NCBI RefSeq assembly: GCF_003472385.1 | Contig: NZ_QRLV01000002.1 | Coordinates: forward strand, 62,001-126,000 | Origin: Sutterella sp. AM11-39 | Lineage (GTDB): Bacteria > Pseudomonadota > Gammaproteobacteria > Burkholderiales > Burkholderiaceae_F | Reading direction: 5' to 3' | Length of the DNA stretch: 64,000 nucleotides | Shown: piece by piece, positions 1,040 to 15,419 of the stretch | Numbering within the stretch: position 1 is the stretch's first letter | Layout of the letters: each line of letters begins with the position of its first letter | Translations under genes and position numbers: made by a program | Notes under the pieces: model-generated | The model's database searches: none | What the model was told of the DNA's origin: nothing | What the model saw: the letters and a program-made list of their open reading frames with translations, nothing else

Positions 1040-1684
1040 TCAGGCAGAATGCAGAGCGGGAACCTCTTCGAAATCTTCTGTTTCGCTGTTCCATAAAGCA
1101 AGACGAGCGCGACCGAGGTCGTAGTAGACGGCATGCAGACACAGGCGACCGGCCTGCACCGGTTCGTGCACCCACTCGTACGAAAGAAGGTTTTCGATCG
1201 AAAGCAGTACGGAACCTTCCTCGCACAAGCGGCAGCGCATTCGCGCGTCAATTCCGGGATTCTCGTGATCAATACGCTGAACGGCAGGCAGCGCCAAGGA
1301 TACCCAGCGCGAAATGAATTCTTCGGAGCGGATCTTGTCAGGATTGAGCAAACCGTGGATGCCGCCGCAGTTAGAGTGTCCCATCACGACGATGTCATGC
1401 ACCTCAAGATGCTTGATGCCGTACTCGATGGCGGCGATCACCGCATCGTGTTTGCCGGCGGAATCCTTGTCCGGAACAATGGCGGCAATGCTACGGACGA
1501 CAAACAAGTCACCAGGCTTACAGCCCAGAATTATGGCCGGGTCGGTGCGGGAGTCGCAACAGGCGATGACAAGCGTCTTAGGACTCTGCCCGTGCGCCAG
1601 CTGCTCGAAAAATTCCTTGTCCTTGAGCAGGTATTCGTTTCTAAAGCCATGAAATCCCGTGATGAGCTCGTGAAATCTCGACAT
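1040..1684 (-). CDS. Beta-class carbonic anhydrase
   Basis: Predicted 214-residue cytoplasmic enzyme interconverting CO2 and bicarbonate. The beta-class zinc site is visible: Cys42-x-Asp44-x-Arg46 in ACCDSR, and the His-x2-Cys pair in GHSNCGG about 55 residues later. The start is the ATG giving MSRFHELITGFHGF. A longer in-frame extension would overlap the preceding gene and is not conserved-looking. It begins 11 bases after the stop of the alpha/beta hydrolase, so it is probably the last gene of the operon starting at 10969. What it contributes there is unclear; supplying bicarbonate to a CO2-dependent anaerobe is one possibility. Can and CynT cannot be separated by eye. Confidence 0.93.
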   Translation of the reverse strand: MSRFHELITGFHGFRNEYLLKDKEFFEQLAHGQSPKTLVIACCDSRTDPAIILGCKPGDLFVVRSIAAIVPDKDSAGKHDAVIAAIEYGIKHLEVHDIVVMGHSNCGGIHGLLNPDKIRSEEFISRWVSLALPAVQRIDHENPGIDARMRCRLCEEGSVLLSIENLLSYEWVHEPVQAGRLCLHAVYYDLGRARLALWNSETEDFEEVPALHSA

Positions 1685-1695
1685 ACCGTCCGTCT

Positions 1696-2628
1696 CTATT
1701 TGTTTCCGTCCAAGAAGGCTTTGACTTCCTTGAGAAATTCCTGAGGACACTCTTCCTGCGGCGAATGCCCGCAATCAAGCGCGCGGCCCGATACAACACT
1801 GGCCTTGTCCCGCCAGGTCTGCACCACGTCGTAAAGCTTTCCAACGGTGCCTCGAGCGCCCCAGAGCAGATGCAAAGGAGCTTGGATACGTTTATCCGCA
1901 TCAGTCTTGTCGTCGACAAGATCTATCGTTGCTGCGGCACGATAGTCCTCACAGATGGCATGGATCGTTTCGGGCTTTCGATAGCTGCGCAGGTACTCTT
2001 CAAAAACCGCTTCCTCAAGTGAACCTTCAATCTTGAGCTGTCCCCGAATGTGGTGTCTCAGAAAATATTCCGGATCAAAGTTGATGAGCTTTTCCGGGAA
2101 CGGTTCGGGCTGAATCAGAAAAAACCACCAGAAATAACGCGTCGCAAATTCTTTGTCAGTGCGCTCGTACATCGTAGCGGTCGGCGCGATGTCGATAAAA
2201 ACAAGCCTGCGCACCCGCTCGGGCCAATCCAGCGCAAAACGATGCCCCACGCGCCCGCCGCGGTCATGTCCCACGAAGTCACATTGCTCAATGCCGAGTG
2301 TCTGCAGCATCAATTGCAAATCGCAAGCCATTTCACGTTTGCTGTAGGGACGATGATCCGGCATGCTCTCGGGCTTCGAGGAATCACCGTAGCCTCGCAA
2401 ATCAACCAGAATCACTTTGCGATCCTTGGCCAATGCCGGCGCCACTTTGCGCCAGATCACATGCGTGTGCGGGTGACCGTGAACCATCAAAACCGGCGTT
2501 TTGTCGCCATCGCCTCCGATTGCTACGCGAAGCGTGATGCCGTTATTTAGTACGACATCAAACAATTTGAAATTATCGACAAAGGCGGACTCGCCACGAA
2601 ACACGATTTTGGGATTTAACATCATCAT
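1696..2628 (-). CDS. Alpha/beta hydrolase of the fluoroacetate/haloacetate dehalogenase family
   Basis: A 310-residue alpha/beta-hydrolase. The oxyanion motif HGHP is at residues 50-53. The nucleophile elbow is GHDRGGR with Asp122 (not Ser), as in haloacetate dehalogenases and epoxide hydrolases. The acid is probably Asp146 and the base His288 in DCGHSPQEE. Arg123 and Arg126 match the carboxylate-binding arginines of fluoroacetate dehalogenases, and Tyr229 in EDYRA matches the halide-site tyrosine. At the site where, from memory, those enzymes carry His-Trp, this protein reads Trp167-Trp168, so dehalogenase activity should not be assumed. The start overlaps the preceding gene by 4 bases (ATGA). 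Three consecutive ATG codons make the exact start uncertain by two residues. Confidence 0.82.
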   Translation of the reverse strand: MMMLNPKIVFRGESAFVDNFKLFDVVLNNGITLRVAIGGDGDKTPVLMVHGHPHTHVIWRKVAPALAKDRKVILVDLRGYGDSSKPESMPDHRPYSKREMACDLQLMLQTLGIEQCDFVGHDRGGRVGHRFALDWPERVRRLVFIDIAPTATMYERTDKEFATRYFWWFFLIQPEPFPEKLINFDPEYFLRHHIRGQLKIEGSLEEAVFEEYLRSYRKPETIHAICEDYRAAATIDLVDDKTDADKRIQAPLHLLWGARGTVGKLYDVVQTWRDKASVVSGRALDCGHSPQEECPQEFLKEVKAFLDGNK

Positions 2629-5495
2629 TGTGCCTGGGTATCCTTTTCCGTCCAGCTCTTGGGATCAAACATGCTGCCGTTGACATGCCAGACACGTTCG
2701 ATCAGATATCCCTCACCGCGCGACTTGCCCAAAATATGGATGCGCGGTTGCGGAGGTTCTACGCCCGTCCAAAGTGCGGCCGCCTTGGCCGCCGTCATAG
2801 GCGCATCGTCAGTCTTGAGTTCTCCTGCTTGTCCTGCTTTTTTCACCAACAACAAAGCATTGGAGCGAGCCGCTCCTGTGCCCATGCCGGCATCGGTAAA
2901 AATCTTGCTGTAGGCAGGATCGTCGCCGGCCGAATGATCACTGGCCAACACCACCGTCGTGTTGTCCCAAACGCCTTCTTTTTTCATCCAGTCGAACCAC
3001 TTGGCAAGTGCCTTGAGCGCACACGTTTCCGTTGCCAGATGCGCAAGCGGCACCCCGTCGGAACTCATCTCACGCTTTGGGTTGGTCTGAATGCGGCAAA
3101 CGCCCGGATCCATAAACCAAGGAAAATGTGTGAGTTCCGTATCAATGAACTTAAATGTACTCTTTTGCCGATTGGCATTGGACAATTCGGGCAATTGATC
3201 GAAAAGCGCCCAGTCCTTGAGAGCGCGCAGCACCAGAACTTCGTTCTTGTTTCCGAGGAAACTTTCAAACCAACGGCCGTCTCGATAGATCAGGTTTTTG
3301 CCGCTCCAGGGCACGGCGGAATAGACCGACACGGCAAGCAAAAACTCGTCGGTGTTGCCGCGGCCGATGGCGATGTCGTTGCGCTTGATGTAACGGTCGG
3401 TATAGGCGTCGCTCAGATAGCGAAGTCCAAGGACATCGTGATCGGTGTACTTTCGCAGGCGCATCTCTTCGAGCCAATTGCGCTCGTATAGCGAAACATC
3501 CCACTTGTCGCCGAGACGGTTGATGAAGTTGCCGTAACTGCGATTGATCTTTTCCGCCACCGATTCGCAGCCCTGCGCGTTGATGGCCAGCGGCGTGCAG
3601 TCATAGCCGCACAGAACCGAAGCAATGCCCGTATTGGTCGATGGACCGGCCGCCAGAGTATCGGGGTACCACACAAATCCGTCAAGATCGCGCTTGAGTT
3701 CCGGTTCGGCCTGCAGAATGCGCTCCATATGCGTACCGGTAAAAGCGTCCATCATGACAACGACAATGTTTTCCCCGGTCTTGGAAAAACCGAAAAGTCG
3801 GTCGTTGTAGTCGGGCAGCTCGTCGGCCGCCGTTTCCCGAGGAGCCGTATCGGTCTGCCACTGACCGCGGCTCTGCCACAGGAGGTATGAGCCGTTGACG
3901 AGCGAACCCACAATACACAGCACGAACACGCTCTTGATCCACCGGGTATGACCGGATCGAATCAGCCAGATATACGCCCCGAAGACCACAACGATGACGG
4001 AAAAGTCGGTAAAGAGATTAGCCGAGCGGAAAAGCGCAGAGGGATTACTGATTTGGAAAGCGTCGATCGTGCCGGTATCAAGCGGAAGCAAGAAGGCATA
4101 TACGGTAAACAGAAGCGTCACCGCCCCCAGAAAATAACCCGCAAAGTTACGCGATCCGACGATACCGGCCAAAAAAGCAAACAACCACACAACAACGCCG
4201 ATGCCGGCGCACCACAAAAGCGACTTAGCCAAAACGACATCAGGTGTGGAGAAAATTTCGACAGCCGTGCAATACGCCTGCACGGGAAGATATGCCGCCA
4301 GCAGCAACGTAATCCAGATACCGGCCGGAGCCAGTAGCGTTTCTGCCGGCTTAGTGGAACGCGCACTGTGCGCTTCGCTGTACAAAAAGCGTCGCAGATC
4401 AATGCCGGCGTGAAGCACGCCCAGAGCCGGAATCAAGAAAAGAAAACCCGAGCTCAAGGCAAAACTCTTGCGGTTGGCCCCGAAGAAATACCACTTGCCC
4501 CAAACGCGCAGACCGTAATACGCAGCTACAACAGTCAGAAGCAAGATAACCCAGTGATGCTTCCAAAGCCGCAACTTCACGGCCAGCACAACGGCGATGA
4601 CAATGCTGGCGATATAGGCAAAGTCAGACGAAAGCGACACGGCGTTTTTGATGCTCTCCGGCACAAAAAAAGCCTGATTGCTCGATAGAAGCGCCAGAAT
4701 GACGGCAACGCCCCAGAACATCAGCGGCACACCGTATAGGCACCCTCCGGGGAAGACTTCCGTTGATTGATGCGCAAAGCGGCCGCGTACCGCGCCAAAA
4801 ATTGCCGCTGCGGGCTTCTGCACGCGCTCGAGCAGACTGTAAACGATGTTCTTTCCCAACGAAAAGATGTTGTTGCATGTCCAATAGAGCACCAGACCGC
4901 TTGCCGCGTCGTATAGCAACACCAGAAAGACCGCTGCCATGCCGTAGAGCTGCATCTTGTCGCGGCGCGTCATGTTATGCGTATAGACGAGCGCGCTTGC
5001 CAGATTGATGACGGTCATGAGAATCGGCAGCACGTTGACTGAAAACGCACCTAGATTGATCATGGCGTCGGGCTTGGACAAGTCAGCGATGCCGAAAAAG
5101 GAAACGCCCGCGAGAGGCTCGAAATGCGACAGGAAGTGATAAGCCGCAAAGAAGAACGGAATCTGAAGGAAAAAGCCCAACGATGAGCGCAGCGACAAAA
5201 ACGGCGAGTAACCCGCTTGACGATGCATCGTCGAAATCATGGCAAAGCGTTCCTGCCCCTTGAAGGTACGCTTGATCATGGCCTCCTTGGCTTCAAAGCT
5301 CTTGCGCAGCGCGCGTTCGCCCTCCTGCCACTTTTCGGCCTTGATGTAGATGGGCAGAATCACCACGTTGACGGCCAGACTCATCACGACAATGGCCGGA
5401 CCCCAGGCTTCGGTGTGCGAGTAGCCCCAAACCAAAGCCGCATGCATCCAGTATTCAAGCGGCGCAATCAAAAGCGTGTAAATGAAATCCAACAT
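2625..5495 (-). CDS. YidC/Oxa1-like insertase domain fused to a sulfatase/phosphoglycerol-transferase domain
   Basis: A 956-residue membrane protein with three parts. Residues 1-225 resemble the YidC/Oxa1 core: several membrane segments, a cytoplasmic loop with a positively charged hairpin, and the hallmark LVLYWTCNNIFSLGKN at 202-216. Residues 255-540 carry about eight more hydrophobic segments. Residues 575-930 are an alkaline-phosphatase/sulfatase-superfamily domain with a metal Asp in VVVMMDAF (about 583), a Ser/Thr-rich nucleophile region GPSTNTG (617-623), THFPWF, and the metal pair ASDHSAGDDP near 855. The C-terminal architecture recalls LtaS/OpgB-type phosphoglycerol transferases. It starts 3 bases after the stop of the CDP-glycerol transferase-like gene, suggesting that both build or modify one polymer. 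Polymer, substrate and any insertase activity are unproven. Confidence 0.8.
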   Translation of the reverse strand: MLDFIYTLLIAPLEYWMHAALVWGYSHTEAWGPAIVVMSLAVNVVILPIYIKAEKWQEGERALRKSFEAKEAMIKRTFKGQERFAMISTMHRQAGYSPFLSLRSSLGFFLQIPFFFAAYHFLSHFEPLAGVSFFGIADLSKPDAMINLGAFSVNVLPILMTVINLASALVYTHNMTRRDKMQLYGMAAVFLVLLYDAASGLVLYWTCNNIFSLGKNIVYSLLERVQKPAAAIFGAVRGRFAHQSTEVFPGGCLYGVPLMFWGVAVILALLSSNQAFFVPESIKNAVSLSSDFAYIASIVIAVVLAVKLRLWKHHWVILLLTVVAAYYGLRVWGKWYFFGANRKSFALSSGFLFLIPALGVLHAGIDLRRFLYSEAHSARSTKPAETLLAPAGIWITLLLAAYLPVQAYCTAVEIFSTPDVVLAKSLLWCAGIGVVVWLFAFLAGIVGSRNFAGYFLGAVTLLFTVYAFLLPLDTGTIDAFQISNPSALFRSANLFTDFSVIVVVFGAYIWLIRSGHTRWIKSVFVLCIVGSLVNGSYLLWQSRGQWQTDTAPRETAADELPDYNDRLFGFSKTGENIVVVMMDAFTGTHMERILQAEPELKRDLDGFVWYPDTLAAGPSTNTGIASVLCGYDCTPLAINAQGCESVAEKINRSYGNFINRLGDKWDVSLYERNWLEEMRLRKYTDHDVLGLRYLSDAYTDRYIKRNDIAIGRGNTDEFLLAVSVYSAVPWSGKNLIYRDGRWFESFLGNKNEVLVLRALKDWALFDQLPELSNANRQKSTFKFIDTELTHFPWFMDPGVCRIQTNPKREMSSDGVPLAHLATETCALKALAKWFDWMKKEGVWDNTTVVLASDHSAGDDPAYSKIFTDAGMGTGAARSNALLLVKKAGQAGELKTDDAPMTAAKAAALWTGVEPPQPRIHILGKSRGEGYLIERVWHVNGSMFDPKSWTEKDTQAQ

Positions 5496-5498
5496 CGC

Positions 5499-6815
5499 TT
5501 ACTGTCCCTTCTTTGCCTGCGTTTTGCGCGTCGATTGATTCTTGAGGCGTTCGACTTCGGCGACCAGAGCACGCGCAATCGGCATGCCGGCCGCACCGAA
5601 ATTGACAACGTTTTCTTCGCGCAAGGCGAGAATTTTTTCGCGCGCACGAGAATCGTCGGCCAAAAGAGCCTGCACGGCCTCGACCACGTTTTTCTCGTCA
5701 CCGGGCAATATGCGTTTACCCAACGTATCGAGCGCACTCACTTCCCAAGCTTCGTGCGGAATTTCCCACGCTTCGAACCCGTCCTTGAGCGGCCCCGCAC
5801 CTACGCTTATCACCGGACGCAGGAAGACGAATGCAAAGTCAAAGATCACGCCCGAAATATCGCTTACCATCAGCTGCGCACGGGACAAAGACGCAAAACC
5901 GTCGGGCTGTCGATCCCATTCGACGTTGTCAAAAGGCAAGAGTTCCTGCGCGAGCTTATCCATCAATTCCGGTTCGGACACAAAACTTTGCGGATGCGGA
6001 CGCAGGATCACGTGATACCCCGCTTGCGCAAGCATCTTCGGAATCATGGCGCCGGTTCGGGTCAGCAGACCGTTGCGGCCCCACGTGGGCGCCACAATGA
6101 CAGTACCCGCTTGCGGAGGAGCCGCTCTCTTTGCCCGCTCCACCAGACCGTCCACATAGGGACAGCCGAGCTGCGTCAACTCTTTGGGGCGAGTTCCACG
6201 CAGCGACTCAAGCGCACGAAGACTCTTAACCTGTCCGGGGCCGGCGCAATAAACGGCGTCGTAGTAGTCGAAACTGAAAAGCTTGTAGGTGTGAATGTCA
6301 CCCACGGCATGCACCACATGCACATAGCGACCGACGCCCGGAGAACGTCGGATCTGCAAGACGTCGATGCCGGGGGTCGTCAGCACAAACACCTTGGTCT
6401 GCAGAAATCCCAGCGCCGTATAGGCTGTGTTGGACTTGCCGATAAAGCGGGGATGCACACACTTAAAACCGGAGGTAAACACCGGATCCTTCTCGTCGCT
6501 CGTAAGATAAGAGCTCTCCACACCCAGCGTCTCGAGTGCCGCCAGAATGGGCTTGAACGTCGACCAATATGCCGCGCTTTCGGCATAGAACGTCAGCGTA
6601 TTGTGCTTGAGGGCATCCGTCTTGCCGGTAAGTCGGAAAAAGAGACTTCTGAGCGTAGAAGGAAGCTTTCGGATCACAAAGTAGGCGCCCGAAATCAACC
6701 CCACAAAAACGGAAAGCAACATGCTGCCCGTACCGGGATCAAGATAGGCGTAGGCGGCCTGCGGCTCGAGCAGGACACTCAAAATAACGAACGTAATGGG
6801 AAGCGTGCGTCGCAT
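5499..6815 (-). CDS. CDP-glycerol glycerophosphotransferase-like protein (TagB/TagF family)
   Basis: A 438-residue protein. The chosen ATG gives MRRTLPITFVILSVLLEPQAAYA, a signal peptide or anchor, followed by YLDPGTGSMLLS and a second hydrophobic segment. The rest resembles the GT-B-like glycerophosphotransferase fold of TagB/TagF: IVAPTWGRNG, then RPHPQS near residue 300, then SDISGVIFDFAF, corresponding to the family's HP and SDxSS..DF motifs. These enzymes normally move glycerol phosphate from CDP-glycerol onto a teichoic acid or capsule chain at the inner membrane. An N-terminal export-like signal is unusual and may be a membrane anchor. It lies between the ABC permease (5-base gap) and the YidC-sulfatase fusion (3-base gap). 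Confidence 0.75.
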   Translation of the reverse strand: MRRTLPITFVILSVLLEPQAAYAYLDPGTGSMLLSVFVGLISGAYFVIRKLPSTLRSLFFRLTGKTDALKHNTLTFYAESAAYWSTFKPILAALETLGVESSYLTSDEKDPVFTSGFKCVHPRFIGKSNTAYTALGFLQTKVFVLTTPGIDVLQIRRSPGVGRYVHVVHAVGDIHTYKLFSFDYYDAVYCAGPGQVKSLRALESLRGTRPKELTQLGCPYVDGLVERAKRAAPPQAGTVIVAPTWGRNGLLTRTGAMIPKMLAQAGYHVILRPHPQSFVSEPELMDKLAQELLPFDNVEWDRQPDGFASLSRAQLMVSDISGVIFDFAFVFLRPVISVGAGPLKDGFEAWEIPHEAWEVSALDTLGKRILPGDEKNVVEAVQALLADDSRAREKILALREENVVNFGAAGMPIARALVAEVERLKNQSTRKTQAKKGQ

Positions 6816-6820
6816 GGCCG

Positions 6821-8427
6821 TTATCGGGAACATCGGTTGGTAAACACAGTACCGGAGGCCACAAGCGAGGCCGCTCGCACTGTCAACGCGCAAACAAAAA
6901 TCAGGCACGACATGGCCGCGCCTTCACTGATAAAGCCGCTGTCGATCATGTCGATGGCTGCCACGGCCGCCACAATGCTCGAAGGGGTGTACAGAAACAC
7001 CACCGCAGAGATTGTCGTCACAGCCGAAGCAAAAAGGTAGGAGAAAATATCGCAAAGTTCGGCACGACTCAAAGGCACAATCACCCGTGTAATCGTCACG
7101 AGCCGACCGGCACCCAACGTTTGACCAACCGTTTCGAACTTGCCGTTCATAGCACTCAGGCCGGCCTTTGCCGTAATGTGAGGTACGCTCCAGAGATGAA
7201 TCACCGTATTGGCGATCACCAGAAAAAGACTGCCGAGCGTCCCCGTAAAAAGCGGCGTACCAGAAAAAGTCATCGCCCAAGCCAAGCCGAGCACCGTCCC
7301 CGGAATGCAGACGGGCAACGAGGCAAGTTTGTCGTAAGCCGCCCTCAAAAGGCCCGGCAACTGCGGCATGCGAACTGTCAGGTAGGCGCCCATCCACGCC
7401 AACATGGTTCCCAATGCCGCCACGGCAAAGCTCACGATCAGGGAATGCAGCCAGGGACTGATTCCGTAGGCTGAATTTCTAAAGGCGTAATTGCCCAACG
7501 TGAGCTGCGTTTCGTACGGCCAGAACGTGATGAAAGAACCATAGATCACAACGCCGATCACCAGCACTTCCGCACCGACCACACACCAGGCAAGAACGCC
7601 GGCCACAGCATCGCGCATCGGCGAAGGCTCGGGTTCTCTGACGTGGAACACCGCCTTCGTCTGTGTCTGAGAAAAGCGTCGCGTCACTTGAAGCGCCAAG
7701 AGCGCCGGAATGAGCAAGCCAAGACTCAAAAGCCCTGCTGCAGCAAAGTTTTGCTCGCCCACCGCCAACGCATAAATTTCGGTAGCAAGCATCGGAAAGT
7801 CGCCCGCAAGCATTTTCGGCACGCCGAAGTCGGTGATCGTCAAAATGAAGGCGATCATGAATGCGTTGGCCAGTCCCGCTCTGGCATGCACCAGCGTCAC
7901 GGTTGCAAAGCGCCGCCAGGGACCGGCGCCGAGACTTCTTGCCGCCGCCAGGAGCTTCACATCCATGGTTGCCAGATTTAACCTCAGCTGCATCACTGTA
8001 TGAGGCAAGGCAAAGACGAGTCCGGCCAAAAAGACGCCCATAGGACCGTAGAGGTCCAGATTGAAAAGCAAGCCGTTGCTGCCCACCAAATAGATGATCC
8101 CGATGGCAGGCATGATGGAGGGCGCAAACAACGGCGCCAAAAAGAGCACCTTGAGTGCACCGCGTCCGCAAGCGCGCGTCACCGTGATGGCATAGGCCAC
8201 CACAAAGCCCAGCACGGTCGCCGTCAGAGCCACGACGGCCCCCATGACAATCGTATTGCCGACGGCCCGCAGGTTGTAAGGCGTTAAAAACGCTGCCGCT
8301 CCCGCCCCTTCTGCCACGACGAGAAGCGCGAGTTCGGCTAACGGCCAGAGAAGTCCTGCAGCCAAAAGAGCCACAAGCCCTCCGAGGAGGAGCTTGGGCA
8401 TCGGGCCGTCGTACGTGCGGCTTAAAC

Positions 8428-8431
<4 letters not shown>
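6821..8431 (-). CDS. ABC transporter double permease, 2-aminoethylphosphonate/iron type
   Basis: A 536-residue inner-membrane protein with two fused permease domains, about twelve hydrophobic segments. Each half has a cytoplasmic coupling loop: AAARSLGAGPWRRF in the first half and VGQTLGAGRLVTITRV in the second. This arrangement is typical of PhnV-like 2-aminoethylphosphonate transporters and of FbpB-type ferric transporters. The ATG used overlaps the TGA of the ATPase gene (ATGA), which is preferred over an upstream in-frame ATG 12 bases earlier. The substrate cannot be read from the permease alone; phosphonate is favoured by the neighbouring cytidylyltransferase. Confidence 0.88.
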
Positions 8432-9453
<1,022 letters not shown>

Positions 9454-9472
9454 ACCTGTCACATCCTTTTCC

Positions 9473-10471
9473 TTAGCGAGTGGCAAGCGCATACCAGCGC
9501 GCCAGAATTACATCTTTGTCCTTTGCAGCGCGGGCAAAATCCATCGGCAGGAAACGCTCGGCAATCCGTTTGCCCTCTTCAGTGCTAAAACCCTCCCGTG
9601 CCGCAATGCCGCTGAAATCAGCCGCAATTTGGCCGACGGCAGGTCCGGCGCAGAAATCCAAAAAGGCTTTCGCCTCCTGCGGATGAGGACACCCCCGCGG
9701 CAGCGCGCAGGCCTCCGCATCCCACGCAATGCCTTCTTCCGGCTGCACCACCGAGACGGGAGTTTTATATTTCAAAAAAGGCTTGAGAAAAGCGGCAGCA
9801 CTCAATCCGATGGGAATTTCCCCCTGTGCCGCCATGGCTGCCGGCCGCGCGCCGCTTGCCGCATAAAAAAGCATGTTGGCGTGCAGCTTTTCGATCACCT
9901 CCCAGCCTTTCTTCTCGCCGAACCCCTGCACAAAACCGTGAAGAAACATCAGTCCCGTGCTCGAGGCTCTCGGGTTGGGCATGACAATCTGGTCCTGAAA
10001 TTCAGATTGCAGCAAATCGGACCAGCTGCGCGGCACCGAAAGTCCTTTTTTCCTGAGAAGATCCGTATTGACACAGACCGATCCTCCCCAAGCGTTGATC
10101 CCGAACCAATGGTTATCCTTTTCCACCATCTTGGGATTGAGCTTTTCGACCTCGTGCGGAGCATAGGGCTCCAAAATACCTTTGGCTCTGAGGTTTTCCA
10201 GAGCAATGGCCGACACCCCCAGCACGGCGTCGGCCTGCACTCGGTCTTTCTCGGCAAGAAGACGAGCGCAGATCGGCCCTCCGGAAGCCCTCACATAGGT
10301 GATTTCGATGTCGGGACGAACGGCGGCAAAGGCGTTACGGTAAACGGCGAGCCACTCCGGCTCCACGGCCGTGTATACCGTGATGCGACGTTTCGCCTCG
10401 GCCGCCCTCACGGGTAGCGCCGACACGAATGGCAAAGCCAGCAAAGCCGCAAAACCGTCTCTGCGCTGCAT
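9473..10471 (-). CDS. Periplasmic substrate-binding protein of the 2-aminoethylphosphonate/Fe3+ ABC family
   Basis: A 332-residue protein with an N-terminal signal (MQRRDGFAALLALPFVSA, cleavage likely after VRA) and a mature part of the type II binding-protein fold: ITVYTAVEPEWL, ADAVLGVSA, FGINAWGG and the NPRASSTG motif shared by PhnS-like and ferric-ion-binding proteins. The start is the ATG 6 bases downstream of an in-frame TTG that directly follows the cytidylyltransferase stop. It should deliver a small anionic ligand to the permease encoded at 6821-8431. 2-Aminoethylphosphonate is the family-based guess; iron or another organophosphorus ligand is possible. Confidence 0.85.
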   Translation of the reverse strand: MQRRDGFAALLALPFVSALPVRAAEAKRRITVYTAVEPEWLAVYRNAFAAVRPDIEITYVRASGGPICARLLAEKDRVQADAVLGVSAIALENLRAKGILEPYAPHEVEKLNPKMVEKDNHWFGINAWGGSVCVNTDLLRKKGLSVPRSWSDLLQSEFQDQIVMPNPRASSTGLMFLHGFVQGFGEKKGWEVIEKLHANMLFYAASGARPAAMAAQGEIPIGLSAAAFLKPFLKYKTPVSVVQPEEGIAWDAEACALPRGCPHPQEAKAFLDFCAGPAVGQIAADFSGIAAREGFSTEEGKRIAERFLPMDFARAAKDKDVILARWYALATR

Positions 10472-10477
10472 CGGCAA

Positions 10478-10969
10478 CTATTCGAGTCTGAATTCTTTCT
10501 TGATGAGCTCAATCATGAAGCGAGCCACCTTATCACCCGTGTTGCCTTTCTTGCTATCGATATTCATCTGAATCAAGCAATCGAGCACGCGCTCGCGCAA
10601 CGTGGAGCTACTCACACCTTCCGTTCTAGGGAAGATGACAAGGCGTTCCGGACGCACATGATTGACATTGTCGGCGCCATGCACCAAGAGGTCACAGTGA
10701 ACACTGTCCATGAATTCATCGTTGATGAGCCAGGGGCCGGCAACCACTTCCTTCACATAACGGATGCTTTCGAGAATTTCCTTGCGTTCCTCGAAGCTCA
10801 ATTCCGGCGTGTAGCCCTTCTTTTTCTTGATTTCTTCGTCCGTGGTCAACACCACGACAACGTCGCCAATCTCGGCTGCTTTTTTCAGAAGCCGAATGTG
10901 GCCGTGGTGAATCAACGTGGCCGACATATCGACCATAACGCGCGGTCGCTCAGCGGTGGAAGCAGTCAT
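10478..10969 (-). CDS. TagD-like nucleotidyltransferase (cytidylyltransferase family)
   Basis: A 163-residue protein of the HxGH nucleotidyltransferase superfamily. The nucleotide-binding HHGH motif lies in MVDMSATLIHHGHIRLL at about residues 13-29, and the C-terminal EGVSSSTLRERV matches the ISSTxL motif of this group. From memory, the sequence is close to the cytidylyltransferase domain that is often fused to PEP mutase in phosphonate biosynthesis, and also to TagD (glycerol-3-phosphate cytidylyltransferase). It is the first gene of the operon and ends 6 bases before the binding-protein ATG. Inference: it makes a CMP- or CDP-activated phosphate or phosphonate used by the downstream transferases. 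No PEP mutase gene is in this window. Confidence 0.85.
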   Translation of the reverse strand: MTASTAERPRVMVDMSATLIHHGHIRLLKKAAEIGDVVVVLTTDEEIKKKKGYTPELSFEERKEILESIRYVKEVVAGPWLINDEFMDSVHCDLLVHGADNVNHVRPERLVIFPRTEGVSSSTLRERVLDCLIQMNIDSKKGNTGDKVARFMIELIKKEFRLE

Positions 10970-11129: not shown

Positions 11130-12467
11130 TCAGAGAAGCGTTGCCATGTAGTAGGGCAAGTACCACACATCGTCCTGACACTTGATTTCACCGTGATGCA
11201 AGACGATAGCCTGTCCGATACGTTTGCCGAATTTCTCTTTGAATCGCTGCAACGATTTGATGCTCGAAGCCCCCGAAGACTTGACTTCAATGGGAATTAT
11301 CTTCTTTGCTTGCCGAATCAAAAAATCAATCTCCATCGTCGTCTTTCTGGTTGCAGGATTTCGCTCCACGTAGAAGTAAGCCCGATGTCCATTCGCTTTC
11401 AGGCACTGCGCGACAACGTTTTCCACCAACATGCCTTCGTTGACTTGAAGCTGATCCCGCAGGACAGCTCTGTAGAGCTCATTTTCCAAATACAGCCGAT
11501 CCGAGAAAGCCAGTGACACCAGAAGTCCGGTATCAGAGAGATAGCATTTGAATGCCGGGTCGGTAACGCCCAAATTGAACGCCGCGCTTGGATCGTCCAC
11601 CTTGCTGGCAAGATTGACAATCATGGCTTCATCCAACCAACGTATTGGTCCTTGATAGTTACGAATCCTTGCACTGGAATCAATGTGAGATAGCACATAA
11701 CGTTTGTCGTGCTTGGACAGTTCAGATGGAATTCGGTCGAAGAAATTTCTGACATAAACTGAATTTTCTTCGTTCTGTTCTTGCATATCGTTTTTGTACA
11801 GCGTAATGATCTGCTGCTTAACGAAATCCGCCTTTCCAAAATCCTTTCCATTGACAAATGCCTGAACAACTTGTGGCATGCCGCCCACCAGCATGTACTC
11901 GCTAAACGACCGCATCATGCCCTGATGCAGAGCCCCCATTGGTTTTCTATTGGCAAAGTGCTCCCGCATGAGCGGCATAGTAAATGTGTCTTCGCTCGCC
12001 CACAAAAATTCCTCAAAATCAAGAGGTTGCACCTCGAGCGTGTATTCCTCAGACGGAATCAGAATATCTTTGCTTCGTTTTGTGATGCCGGCAAGCGATC
12101 CGGTTTCGAGGTAGTCGTACCGCCCGTCTTCCAGAAGCGTTTTAAGCGCCTGCCGCGCCTGCGGAAAAAGCTGTATCTCATCTAGCACGATCAGAGACTT
12201 GCGGCGATGCAATTGTGTTTTGTATTCGAACTGAAGCTGAGCAAAGAAACCATCCAGATCGCGCAACCCATTGACGAACAAGTCTTTGACAACCTGATCA
12301 GCTTGGTCAAAGCGAATCAGAATGTAGCTTTCGTATGCTTCGCGTCCCAACTTTTCCGCAAGCGTTGTTTTGCCTACACGCCGAGCTCCTTTGAGAAACA
12401 GAGCGTAGTGAGGAGCGTACTTTTCCTTCCATTTGAGCATTTCCTGAAAAACTTTTCGCTCAAACAT
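11130..12467 (-). CDS. AAA-type ATPase with DUF4143 domain
   Basis: A 445-residue protein of the DUF4143 ATPase group, common and multi-copy in gut bacteria, function unknown. Visible: Walker A LKGARRVGKTTLAEK near residue 28, Walker B SLIVLDEIQ near residue 95, a sensor-like ETGSLAG, and a C-terminal PD-(D/E)xK-like segment, METIDFLIR-type followed by IIPIEVKSS (around residues 375-395). The start is ATG at 12467 with AGGAG about ten bases upstream; an in-frame TTG 9 bases earlier sits too close to that site. The leader consists of 33-bp repeats (12487-12597). It stands alone between the phosphonate-type operon and the AOR cluster and may be an acquired gene. Confidence 0.85.
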   Translation of the reverse strand: MFERKVFQEMLKWKEKYAPHYALFLKGARRVGKTTLAEKLGREAYESYILIRFDQADQVVKDLFVNGLRDLDGFFAQLQFEYKTQLHRRKSLIVLDEIQLFPQARQALKTLLEDGRYDYLETGSLAGITKRSKDILIPSEEYTLEVQPLDFEEFLWASEDTFTMPLMREHFANRKPMGALHQGMMRSFSEYMLVGGMPQVVQAFVNGKDFGKADFVKQQIITLYKNDMQEQNEENSVYVRNFFDRIPSELSKHDKRYVLSHIDSSARIRNYQGPIRWLDEAMIVNLASKVDDPSAAFNLGVTDPAFKCYLSDTGLLVSLAFSDRLYLENELYRAVLRDQLQVNEGMLVENVVAQCLKANGHRAYFYVERNPATRKTTMEIDFLIRQAKKIIPIEVKSSGASSIKSLQRFKEKFGKRIGQAIVLHHGEIKCQDDVWYLPYYMATLL

Positions 12468-12486
12468 TGTTCGCAAATCTCCTTTT

Positions 12487-12681: not shown

Positions 12682-13626
12682 TTAACCGCCGATGGAGTTG
12701 AGCTGTCCCGCGTAAAGGATAAAGAAGCGCAGGCACATCATGCCGACTACGCTGCACAGTGCCGAAATGACCACGGTAGCAAACGACTTCTTGAAGAAGG
12801 CGAACAACACGGGGCAAATAAAGCCTACGCACACAACGCCCACCCAAAATTCGGTTGCCCAGAAGCCGTCAACAAAAGCCTTTGCTGCCATCTGAGACGA
12901 TTCGATACCTGTCATCAGAGCAAAAGCGATCATAAAGATGCACAGCGCTTCGGCAGCCATCACCGGCCACTCGGCCACGTGCAAAACATGCACATCGTGG
13001 CTTTCGTGCGATTCACCCAGCAGCACAGCGCCGAGCTGATTGCAGGCAATGCCCGCTGACAGCCCCGAAGCCACGAAAAGAGCCGGAAGAACAGCCGTGT
13101 TGATCAGCGGGAAACGCACCAAAGCACTGATCAGAAAGCCCGTGTAGGCGCAAACGGTAAGCGCAAACACCAGACCGATCCATGTGAGTACCGGCAGGAT
13201 CTTTCGCAGCACGCTCAAAAGAGCGGCACCGCACGGAATGCCGTCCACAAGGCGCTTGACCGGTTCAAACTCGTAAAAGCTCACGAGCGTGACCAAGAAC
13301 ATCGTCGGGATGAACACCAAAAGAGCCATCACGCCGACACTCATCACCGAAGTCGGGTTGTAGAAGATAAGAATCTTCCAGAAATCCAACGGTTTGGTGA
13401 GGTCAAACACCAGACAGATCATGCCCAACAGAATCGTCACGAGCGCAATGAAGCTTGCCGCCTGAAAGAGCGGTGTGATCTGCGTCTGCTTTCTGAAGAT
13501 GCGCACCAGAGCGGCCGCTGCAAACGCACCACCCGAAATGCCGGCCAGAAAGAGGTACACGGCAATCGGCCAGGGCCAGGCCACGTTTTCAGAAAAGCCG
13601 ATCGTGAAATCAATGACTTGTTCCAT
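12682..13626 (-). CDS. NrfD/PsrC-family quinone-interacting membrane subunit
   Basis: A 314-residue polytopic protein with about eight to nine hydrophobic segments, matching the NrfD/PsrC/TtrC family: MEQVIDFTIGFSENVAWPWPIAVYLFLAGISGG at the N-terminus, with the family's LFLAGISGGAF motif. Such subunits exchange electrons between the quinone pool and a periplasm-facing Fe-S subunit. The start codon directly follows the TAA of the Fe-S gene, so the pair is translationally coupled. It probably replaces the b-type cytochrome YdhU of the E. coli ydh operon in this AOR cluster. Confidence 0.9.
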   Translation of the reverse strand: MEQVIDFTIGFSENVAWPWPIAVYLFLAGISGGAFAAAALVRIFRKQTQITPLFQAASFIALVTILLGMICLVFDLTKPLDFWKILIFYNPTSVMSVGVMALLVFIPTMFLVTLVSFYEFEPVKRLVDGIPCGAALLSVLRKILPVLTWIGLVFALTVCAYTGFLISALVRFPLINTAVLPALFVASGLSAGIACNQLGAVLLGESHESHDVHVLHVAEWPVMAAEALCIFMIAFALMTGIESSQMAAKAFVDGFWATEFWVGVVCVGFICPVLFAFFKKSFATVVISALCSVVGMMCLRFFILYAGQLNSIGG

Positions 13627-14298
13627 TTACGACTCCTTCTTCAACGGGATGTAGCGCAGGCTGGGCTTGGTACCCAACTGCGGACGCACACGCACCGAGT
13701 CCTTGAAATCAAGAAGCTTGGTAACGAAAGCATTGGGATCGTTAACGTCACCAAACACCAGCGCGTCATATCGGCAGGCCGAAACGCAAGCCGGATCTTC
13801 GCCCTTGTGCAGGCGTGTATCCAAGCAGAAATTGCAGTGATCGGCCGCCCCCGTATCTTCGCGGATGTAGCGCACGTTGTAAGGGCAAGCCACGATGCAG
13901 TACTTGCAGCCGATGCAAAGATCCGCATCCACCGTCACAATTCCCGTTTCCTTGTCGCGATGAGCCGCCCCCGTCGGGCAGACACGAATGCAGGGCGCTT
14001 CCTCGCACTGCTGACACGACACGCGGGTATAGTGGCGATCCTTTTTATTGCTGCCGTCGGGCTTGACGCCGTTGAGCTGCATCAAGAGGCGAGATCGCCC
14101 TTTCGGAAGCTTGTTGGTCTCATTGCAGGCAATCTTGCATTCGCCGCAGCCGACACACTTGTTCTGGTCAAAGACCATCACGTAATGCGGCTGACTGTCC
14201 TGTCGGGAGACGCCGGTGCAGCCTGCCAAAGGCACTGCCGCAATACCCAACGCTGCCGTCCCGAGCAGTTGTCTGCGGTTAATTGTCGGTTTAGTCAC
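13627..14298 (-). CDS. Exported four-cluster ferredoxin-like subunit (NrfC/TtrB type)
   Basis: A 223-residue protein. Four cysteine groups: CVGCGECKIAC, CQQCEEAPCIRVC, CIGCKYCIVAC, and a split set with CNFC and CVSAC, fitting four [4Fe-4S] clusters. The N-terminus has NRRQLLGTAALGIAA, a Tat-type signal, ending in the lipobox PLAGC (Cys27), so it may be a Tat-exported lipoprotein. The start is a GTG with AGGAG seven bases upstream; a longer in-frame extension has no such site. It wires the neighbouring multihaem cytochrome and AOR proteins to the NrfD subunit. It occupies the position of YdhX in the E. coli ydhYVWXUT operon. Confidence 0.9.
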   Translation of the reverse strand: MTKPTINRRQLLGTAALGIAAVPLAGCTGVSRQDSQPHYVMVFDQNKCVGCGECKIACNETNKLPKGRSRLLMQLNGVKPDGSNKKDRHYTRVSCQQCEEAPCIRVCPTGAAHRDKETGIVTVDADLCIGCKYCIVACPYNVRYIREDTGAADHCNFCLDTRLHKGEDPACVSACRYDALVFGDVNDPNAFVTKLLDFKDSVRVRPQLGTKPSLRYIPLKKES

Positions 14299-14387
14299 AG
14301 TTTTTCTCCTGATCTGCAGACGCACGCCGAAGTCCGTTGTTTACAGACCATTGACGTGCGTCCTGCGTTATCCAAGTCCCCTTCGAG

Positions 14388-15419
14388 TTACTTGGTCGCG
14401 TGGCGATAGCCGCCGTTGTCGATCAGAACCTGTGCCTTGGCAAGGTAGCTCTCTGCCGCTGCCAACCGATCCTTGGTGTAATGCGAAGCGTGAGCGCCCC
14501 AACTGCCGTCCTTCTTGATCAGATCGGCAATTTCCGCAGCCTTATCCAGAAGCAGGCGAGCTTCAGTTTGATCAGCCGGCGTCATCTTCGTGATTTCCAA
14601 AAGCTTCGTGATGCGATCCACCCCCTTGACGACACGGTCCCAGCTTTCCTTCACAGGACGCTGAACCTTCTGCACCTCATAGGCAATTTCCTGCTGCGAC
14701 TTGTAGATCAGCCCCTTGTCGAGTTCGGAAGTCGCAGGGCTGTGGCAGCCGCGGCCTTCGCAAACCGTCCAATCGGCCGGAGCGGGACGACCGCAGCTCC
14801 ACTGCAGATCAACAAAACCGTGATCTTCTTTGTCGCGGCTGTACACCCATCCCTTTTCAGGATCCTTGGTCACCATGGAAGCCTGAGCATCCGTGTTGAT
14901 CTTGTAGAGGTGCGCACGGCGGACAGCCGCAAAGCGATCCGTTCCCTTAAGCGCCTCCTCAAACTTGCTCACCACCGGGATGTTGGGCATGTGGCAACCG
15001 ATGCAGTCGACATCCTTGTGAGAGCGCGTATGGCTTTGCATGTCAGCCTGCACCGTATGGCAGTCCTGGCAGGTTTTTTTCATGGGCGGATTGGTGACCT
15101 TAGCCATCCAATCGGGGCCGCCCTGACGCTGCTGATCGTGGCAGGTCACGCAGGTCAAGCCCTTTTCGAAATGCTTGCTCATGGCATGCTGCTCGAGCTT
15201 GTCGTTGTATACCTCAGCGATCAGTCGCTTGGTCTCCTCCGTACTACGTTCGATCTTGGTATTGGCGGCGTCACCGAGAGACTTCACGAAATCGGGCTTG
15301 CCCTGAATGTCGAATTCAGGCGCGGGCGTCGCGGCTGCAACGGTAAAACTCAATGCCGAACCCAAAGCCAGCACGCTCAAGGCGCTGATCGGGCGAAGCA
15401 GTTTTTTGAACGTTGTCAT
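14388..15419 (-). CDS. Periplasmic multihaem c-type cytochrome
   Basis: A 343-residue protein with an N-terminal signal peptide (cleavage near residue 30, VAAA/TPAP). Three canonical haem c motifs: C90VTCH, C117QDCH and C139IGCH. A fourth candidate is C220EGRGCH, a CX4CH site just after WSCGRPAPADW. Residues 230-343 are helical and contain no further haem motif. The start has AAGGAAACAGGA upstream. It lies between the unknown 288-residue protein and the exported Fe-S subunit, so it is probably an electron-transfer subunit or terminal haem protein of the AOR cluster. The closest named family is uncertain. Confidence 0.85.
   Translation of the reverse strand: MTTFKKLLRPISALSVLALGSALSFTVAAATPAPEFDIQGKPDFVKSLGDAANTKIERSTEETKRLIAEVYNDKLEQHAMSKHFEKGLTCVTCHDQQRQGGPDWMAKVTNPPMKKTCQDCHTVQADMQSHTRSHKDVDCIGCHMPNIPVVSKFEEALKGTDRFAAVRRAHLYKINTDAQASMVTKDPEKGWVYSRDKEDHGFVDLQWSCGRPAPADWTVCEGRGCHSPATSELDKGLIYKSQQEIAYEVQKVQRPVKESWDRVVKGVDRITKLLEITKMTPADQTEARLLLDKAAEIADLIKKDGSWGAHASHYTKDRLAAAESYLAKAQVLIDNGGYRHATK

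Follow-up and report, generated by a model that had tools for sequence, protein, structure and literature searches.

The described systems closest to the one reported here are those which place phosphonates on bacterial surfaces. In PMC6697681, most of the bacterial phosphonate capacity is said to tailor cell surfaces, the steps after phosphoenolpyruvate (PEP) mutase are described as having been enigmatic, and a nucleotidyl activation step (PntC) is added to this phosphonyl tailoring (Pnt). Here we analyzed an operon of six genes in a window of 64,000 nucleotides (the whole stretch of DNA under analysis) from Sutterella sp. AM11-39 (contig NZ_QRLV01000002.1, positions 62,001 to 126,000). The operon encodes a cytidylyltransferase (CTase), the three subunits of an ABC importer which would be of 2-aminoethylphosphonate (AEP) type, a membrane-anchored TagF-like transferase and a fusion of a YidC domain with an LtaS-like domain. 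Its likeness to the Pnt pathways is that a CTase would activate a phosphonate bound for the cell surface. PntC is described in PMC6697681 as licC-like, with PEP mutase and a LicD-like phosphotransferase or glycosyltransferase as neighbours, whereas the present operon has a CTase of the Fom1/Pcyt2/TagD kind and an importer in place of PEP mutase; the main text of that paper makes no mention of YidC, sulfatase or glycerophosphotransferase. AEP importers, AepXVW among them, are described in PMC8316502.

AepXVW presumably belongs to the PhnS2-T2-U2 family, which provides the best NCBIfam models for all three importer subunits of the operon. The differences are its scores below the equivalog cut-offs and its neighbours, as the operon importer adjoins activation and transfer genes and not degradation genes, and degradation is served by a second, PhnWX-linked importer. 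In the LicABC-LicD salvage of phosphocholine a ready-made head group is taken up, activated with CTP and put on surface glycans; the operon here lacks a kinase, an enzyme required for choline but not expected to be for AEP, and its transferases are TagF-like and LtaS-like and not LicD. With LtaS, EptA, BcsG and YejM the C-terminal domain of the fusion has in common its fold and the positions of the His and Asp-His residues; the fusion differs from these enzymes by its N-terminal YidC domain, a long transmembrane linker and a TagF-like partner. In the open-access literature, outside of which most subscription journals lie, no work was found which describes the pair of TagF-like protein and fusion or which joins phosphonate tailoring or AEP import with a YidC-LtaS fusion, nor any description of phosphonate salvage for surface decoration.

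The operon is read here, with somewhat better than even confidence, as a phosphonyl-tailoring pathway which works on scavenged phosphonate and has the TagF-like protein and the fusion as its transfer step. Judged from their genes, Sutterellaceae and Clostridiales share the output end of the system (TagF-like protein and fusion) and the CTase, and the input end seems to differ, with synthesis by PEP mutase in the Clostridiales and import in the Sutterellaceae. From this shared output and differing input we infer AEP import, CMP activation and an inner followed by an outer transfer.

Inspection of the open reading frames (ORFs) of the window placed the six genes on the minus strand from 10969 to 2625, overlapping or at most 3 bases apart, and the preliminary description of this locus was correct in its coordinates and its account of the genes. 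The CTase, TagF-like and fusion genes were found together in all six Sutterellaceae loci which were compared (L001-L006, four from Duodenibacillus metagenome-assembled genomes (MAGs) and two from Parasutterella secunda; L stands for locus, G for genome and P for protein relative). The importer lies between CTase and TagF-like gene in four of them; L001 and L003 have no importer in between and the CTase is directly adjacent to the TagF-like gene. When 150 genomes around G001 were surveyed, with E 1e-60 or better as the threshold for the fusion, fusion and CTase were present in the identical 9 genomes and in none elsewhere (Fisher 1e-14, kinship not corrected for). Importer orthologues (>50% identity) adjoin the CTase in 6 of the 9. 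In G045 and G066 a CTase-importer block stands apart from the TagF-like-fusion block, by ~56 kb in G066 and on a different contig in G045, both blocks being kept, and in G061 the CTase is next to the terminal part of a fusion gene which is truncated by the contig edge. The earlier claim that the genes belong together is borne out by the conserved order and by the nine shared genomes; on scattering in relatives, which had been set beforehand as a test, the outcome is divided, the genes being together in six of six loci but lying as two separate blocks in G045 and G066.

PEP mutase over the PF13714 cut-off was found in none of the nine fusion-bearing Sutterellaceae genomes, six of which have PF13714 matches of 20-26.5 bits, below the cut-off, and none was recognised beside the operon in the reading frames of L001-L006; the phosphonate would therefore be salvaged and not made. 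Within the 64-kb window, queries with PhnW, PhnX and phosphonopyruvate decarboxylase (Ppd) gave nothing, and a CTase-PEP mutase query gave the CTase region (10915-10301) as its sole match. The C-P lyase protein PhnJ was found in none of the nine genomes. PhnW over cut-off is present in all nine, versus 32 of the 141 other relatives (Fisher 4e-6), and every one of the nine has a separate operon of ATPase, permease, binding protein, PhnW and PhnX, the last being a phosphonoacetaldehyde hydrolase at equivalog level in both loci tested (L158, L166). From this it seems that the nine Sutterellaceae import and break down AEP through a separate set of genes, distinct from the operon importer; in the three genomes without the operon importer, the degradative importer could supply the CTase.

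The link between the transfer pair and phosphonate synthesis comes from 198 genomes around a rumen Clostridiales MAG (L007, G007), "Clostridiales" being the title of this centre MAG, in which a fusion match of E 1e-30 or better was taken as positive. Both fusion and PEP mutase occur in 83 of these genomes, the fusion only in 15, PEP mutase only in 13 and neither in 87 (odds ratio 37). Physical linkage was counted among 150 fusion matches (up to about four candidates scored per genome) and 100 PEP mutase matches, and the counts are lower bounds: the two lie within 10 kb of each other in at least 25 of the 65 genomes with both listed, where 0.86 is expected at random PEP mutase placement, and within 15 kb in at least 29 of the 65, where 1.22 is expected. 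PEP mutase linkage changes four times on the tree of the TagF-like protein (50 rows of 380-480 aa from chosen loci, the G061 copy being outside the length limit), at least three of the changes being forced by well-supported branches. This quick tree does not support a recent exchange of the TagF-like gene between the Clostridiales and the Sutterellaceae, which are separated in it by a long and fully supported split. In the Clostridiales the fusion is expanded and often forms tandem arrays next to a TagF-like gene; a single genome may have as many as 41 first-look candidates, which are not confirmed genes. In L084, L085, L087 and L097, between three and about seven fusion genes, some of them cut or split, stand in tandem or nearly so; of L089 and L090 this comparison covered parts.

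Genes of PEP mutase operons were present in 6 of 20 loci (L080-L099) taken from the best fusion matches, several of them picked for multiple copies. Further loci (L142-L157) were chosen for linkage and so show arrangement and not frequency, and the ORF picking misses some of their genes. Two arrangements were seen. In the first, the strand opposite to the pair carries, next to it, genes for PhnW, CTase-PEP mutase and Ppd, which in L086 all score at equivalog level. In the second, found in L142, L143, L148, L152 and L153, a single strand carries, with short overlaps or gaps, the fusion, nucleotidyltransferase-CTase-PEP mutase, an iron alcohol dehydrogenase, Ppd and the TagF-like gene; domains were checked for PEP mutase in L142 and L153 and for the dehydrogenase in L142 and L148. 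The product of the second arrangement might be hydroxyethylphosphonate, which we suggest only conditionally because the dehydrogenase scores below the cut-off of its model. Next to fusions, L142:7961-9976 (671 aa) and L153:8542-10662 (706 aa) encode three-domain proteins which combine an NTP-transferase, a CTase and a PEP mutase. Just upstream of the fusions in L153, the gene at 1534-3336 encodes a fusion of an NTP-transferase with an aminotransferase, the latter being most similar to threonine-phosphate decarboxylase, though with a score below the cut-off, and perhaps this protein serves another activated head group.

The CTase matches PF01467 (1.4e-16), and its nearest solved relatives in the PDB are Pcyt2, the human ethanolamine-phosphate CTase (5e-22), the CTase domain of Fom1 (1.8e-16) and TagD (1.6e-14). 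Identity is 42.6% over 94 columns with Fom1, 41.1% over 90 with the first Pcyt2 domain and 37.8% over 111 with one TagD. In a comparison with 10 of the 120 listed CTase relatives and 7 PEP mutase fusions, the window CTase, Fom1 and the PEP-mutase-fused CTases had in common a strand with one residue fewer than its counterpart in TagD and Pcyt2. The Trp just after the conserved GD, present in Fom1, TagD and the PEP-mutase-fused CTases, is missing from the window CTase, and a TagD-like RTEGxSSSxxR stretch is retained. On the whole a CTase of phosphonate type is favoured, though not proven, and Pcyt2 is almost as similar as Fom1. An assignment as TagD was rejected at 63.4 bits versus the TIGR01518 equivalog cut-off of 165.4. 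LicC belongs to the NTP-transferase families, none of which the CTase matches, hence it does not fall within the LicC-like family of PntC. Two stand-alone CTases labelled Desulfovibrio, another phylum (P0313, P0316), are ~70% identical to the window CTase, which hints at gene transfer among gut bacteria.

The TagF-like protein, the start of which was taken at the ATG at 6833 and not in the longer GTG frame, scores 16.8 bits against the PF04464 gathering cut-off of 22.1, and its assignment therefore comes from fold and relatives. Its best Foldseek matches are TagF structures (3l7k, E 3e-12; 3l7i, E 3e-11) with the GT-B fold, and three Clostridiales relatives score above the PF04464 cut-off (44.7-54.6 bits). 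H174, RPHPQ and the SD-S motif (numbering of a 443-residue piece from 6830) are kept in 50 of 50 rows, and these His-Pro and SD-S motifs are shared with the CDP-polyol transferases TagF, TarL and TagB (PF04464); a conserved membrane segment, Y-[LI]-DPGTG-x-ML, sets the TagF-like proteins apart from them, as does, for the window copy, the sub-cut-off Pfam score. When solved structures were searched with a profile of the TagF-like alignment, all matches were at E >1. P0121, with 444 residues, is 99% identical to the TagF-like protein over the query.

The fusion is made of a YidC domain (residues ~1-225, 5495-4821), a transmembrane linker (~250-550) and an alkaline-phosphatase-superfamily domain (565-956, 3803-2625), the last with a Thr nucleophile and a His/Asp-His metal site of LtaS/EptA type. 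D583, T620 and H790 are present in all of 92 fusion rows, which include near-duplicate stretches from the same genomes, and D853/H854 in 91, with one gap. The YidC domain reaches 85.9 bits against the TIGR03592 cut-off of 84.3. At the groove position, 23 fusions have Asn (22) or Ser (1), and 17 of 18 supposed canonical YidC rows have Lys, the eighteenth (L029) being a wrong reading frame; across the 92 fusion rows the position is N in 82, S in 9 and a gap in 1. As the positive groove residue of insertases, Arg366 in E. coli, is absent, the YidC domain would be an anchor or a lipid-handling part and not an insertase. EptA is a weak match of one Clostridiales fusion (22.3 bits), and the profile made from the fusion alignment found no match among solved structures. 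Four fusions of ~850 aa (P0116, P0117, P0118, P0120) are 72-75% identical to that of the window over the first quarter and strongly diverged over the rest, so that constraint seems to be stronger on the YidC domain.

For the importer, the best NCBIfam models are PhnS2 for the binding protein (283.4 bits, equivalog cut-off 392.75), PhnT2 for the ATPase (345.1, cut-off 457.7) and PhnU2 for the permease (398.5, cut-off 593.25). The binding protein is more PhnS2-like than the one tested from a degradative operon (283 versus 112 bits, L166), and the importer is probably of AEP type, with AEP as the presumed cargo. It may instead be an iron importer: the best solved relative of the binding protein, 4r72, is titled as an Fe3+ system, and several of the 15 solved relatives are titled as iron or polyamine systems and one as an AEP binder. 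4r72 is presumably AfuA, a sugar-phosphate binder, and the second-best solved relative, 6wce, binds pyridoxal phosphate.

The preliminary description, which was made from the window alone, had named a YidC-sulfatase fusion with a phosphoglycerol-transferase-like domain, and the YidC model and the LtaS/EptA-type site agree with it. It had placed the CTase near both the phosphonate-pathway domain and TagD; Fom1 and TagD are both among the CTase relatives, and the score falls short of the TagD equivalog cut-off. The AEP-type transporter keeps its best models without reaching their cut-offs, and the TagB/TagF-like transferase holds by fold and by its Clostridiales relatives, the window copy itself being under the Pfam cut-off. 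The proposed phosphonate theme gains from the linkage of the pair to PEP mutase in Clostridiales and, with no PEP mutase over the cut-off in the nine Sutterellaceae genomes, has to be recast as salvage.

The proposed pathway would run in four steps. The PhnS2-T2-U2-type importer would take up a small phosphonate, most likely AEP, and the CTase would convert CTP and AEP to CMP-AEP. At the inner membrane face, the TagF-like enzyme would then use CMP-AEP as donor and place its phosphonyl group on an acceptor which is a lipid or is linked to one, and the LtaS/EptA-like Thr nucleophile of the fusion would, on the outside, hand the group over from this lipid to a glycan of the envelope. Inferred parts of this scheme are the cargo, the acceptor and which of the third and fourth steps comes first. 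LtaS and EptA use phospholipid donors, and for this reason a phosphonolipid intermediate is our guess. In L084 a single TagF-like gene has several fusion copies at its side, an arrangement which would fit one donor with several acceptors, and the product may equally be a polymer or a single-unit decoration.

Several observations weigh against a phosphonate pathway of this kind. The CTase is assigned by similarity below curated cut-offs, and all three importer subunits score under their equivalog cut-offs. Epimerases outrank TagF in the VIA fold list for the TagF-like protein, and plain sulfatases outrank LtaS in the fold matches of the fusion, so that fold alone settles neither function. G001, G003 and G061 are without an importer orthologue and have only paralogues of 23-31%. 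Around G007, 15 of the 98 fusion-bearing genomes are without PEP mutase, and a CTase of the window's family was found in only 3 of these 15 (the same search found none in five other genomes without fusion or PEP mutase); the pair can thus be present where these genes provide no CMP-phosphonate.

The alternative which survives best is a teichoic-acid-like one, in which the CTase would turn glycerol 3-phosphate of cellular origin into CDP-glycerol, the TagF-like protein and the fusion would build or transfer glycerol-phosphate units and the importer would feed phosphate-containing nutrients. It accounts for TagD among the CTase relatives and the retained TagD-like stretch, for TagF and LtaS as fold and sequence relatives of the pair, and for the three genomes without importer, which an endogenous substrate does not need; nevertheless the failed TagD equivalog, the AEP type of the importer and the PEP mutase linkage of the pair in Clostridiales leave it unlikely. 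Next in rank, and improbable in our judgement, is a salvage of phosphoethanolamine or phosphocholine from gut lipids, with import, formation of CDP-ethanolamine or CDP-choline by the CTase and transfer to the surface by the pair. The same PEP mutase linkage speaks against it, and the AEP catabolism in all nine genomes suggests that these bacteria meet AEP, even though among solved structures the human ethanolamine-phosphate enzyme has the best E-value with the CTase, a pyridoxal-phosphate binder ranks second for the binding protein and a Clostridiales fusion matches EptA weakly. That the importer is a plain nutrient system among envelope genes, with CTase, TagF-like protein and fusion unrelated to its cargo, is very improbable: it would agree with the three of nine genomes lacking the orthologue and with the direct CTase-TagF-like adjacency in L001 and L003, but CTase and importer stay adjacent in G045 and G066, where the TagF-like and fusion genes are elsewhere, and a separate AEP-nutrient operon exists in all nine genomes.

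The coordinates of the operon and of the two genes which follow it in the same direction are given in Table 1. Hydrolase and carbonic anhydrase lie downstream of the core in L001 only, of the six Sutterellaceae loci (77% and 73%, respectively), and the carbonic anhydrase probably has no part in the core pathway. An AAA_14/DUF4143 ATPase gene precedes the operon at 11130-12476 on the same strand, and the region 12682-15419, with an NrfD-type membrane subunit, a 4Fe-4S ferredoxin-like protein and a protein with several CxxCH motifs, is probably a respiratory reductase operon.

Table 1. Genes of the operon and its co-directional downstream neighbours in the window
Feature	Coordinates	Strand	Remarks
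Cytidylyltransferase (CTase), PF01467, 163 aa	10478..10969	-	First operon gene; gap 0 to binding protein
Substrate-binding protein, TTG start, best model PhnS2 (TIGR03261)	9473..10477	-	20-base overlap with ATPase
ABC ATPase, best model PhnT2 (TIGR03265)	8428..9492	-	16-base overlap with permease
ABC permease, best model PhnU2 (TIGR03262)	6821..8443	-	13-base overlap with TagF-like gene
Membrane-anchored TagF-like transferase	5499..6833	-	Gap 3 to YidC-sulfatase fusion
YidC-LtaS-like fusion (YidC-sulfatase), 956 aa	2625..5495	-	Last of six core genes
Alpha/beta hydrolase	1696..2628	-	PF00561 2e-27; 4-base overlap with fusion, co-directional
Carbonic anhydrase	1040..1774 (from first start)	-	PF00484 1.5e-41; last co-directional gene

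The TagF-like protein and the fusion provide a conserved two-gene candidate for the phosphonyl transfer step. A wider proposal, to which we give somewhat less than an even chance, is that this pair is a general and undescribed machinery which transfers CMP-activated phosphonates in two phyla of gut bacteria and was diversified by tandem duplication in the Clostridiales, and that Sutterellaceae, which would not synthesise phosphonates, decorate themselves with phosphonates from other bacteria or from the diet. If salvage is true, the absence of PEP mutase would not mean the absence of surface phosphonates, and surveys based on PEP mutase would undercount them. One gut bacterium would then wear a C-P group made by another, and a surface trait would be cross-fed in the gut community.
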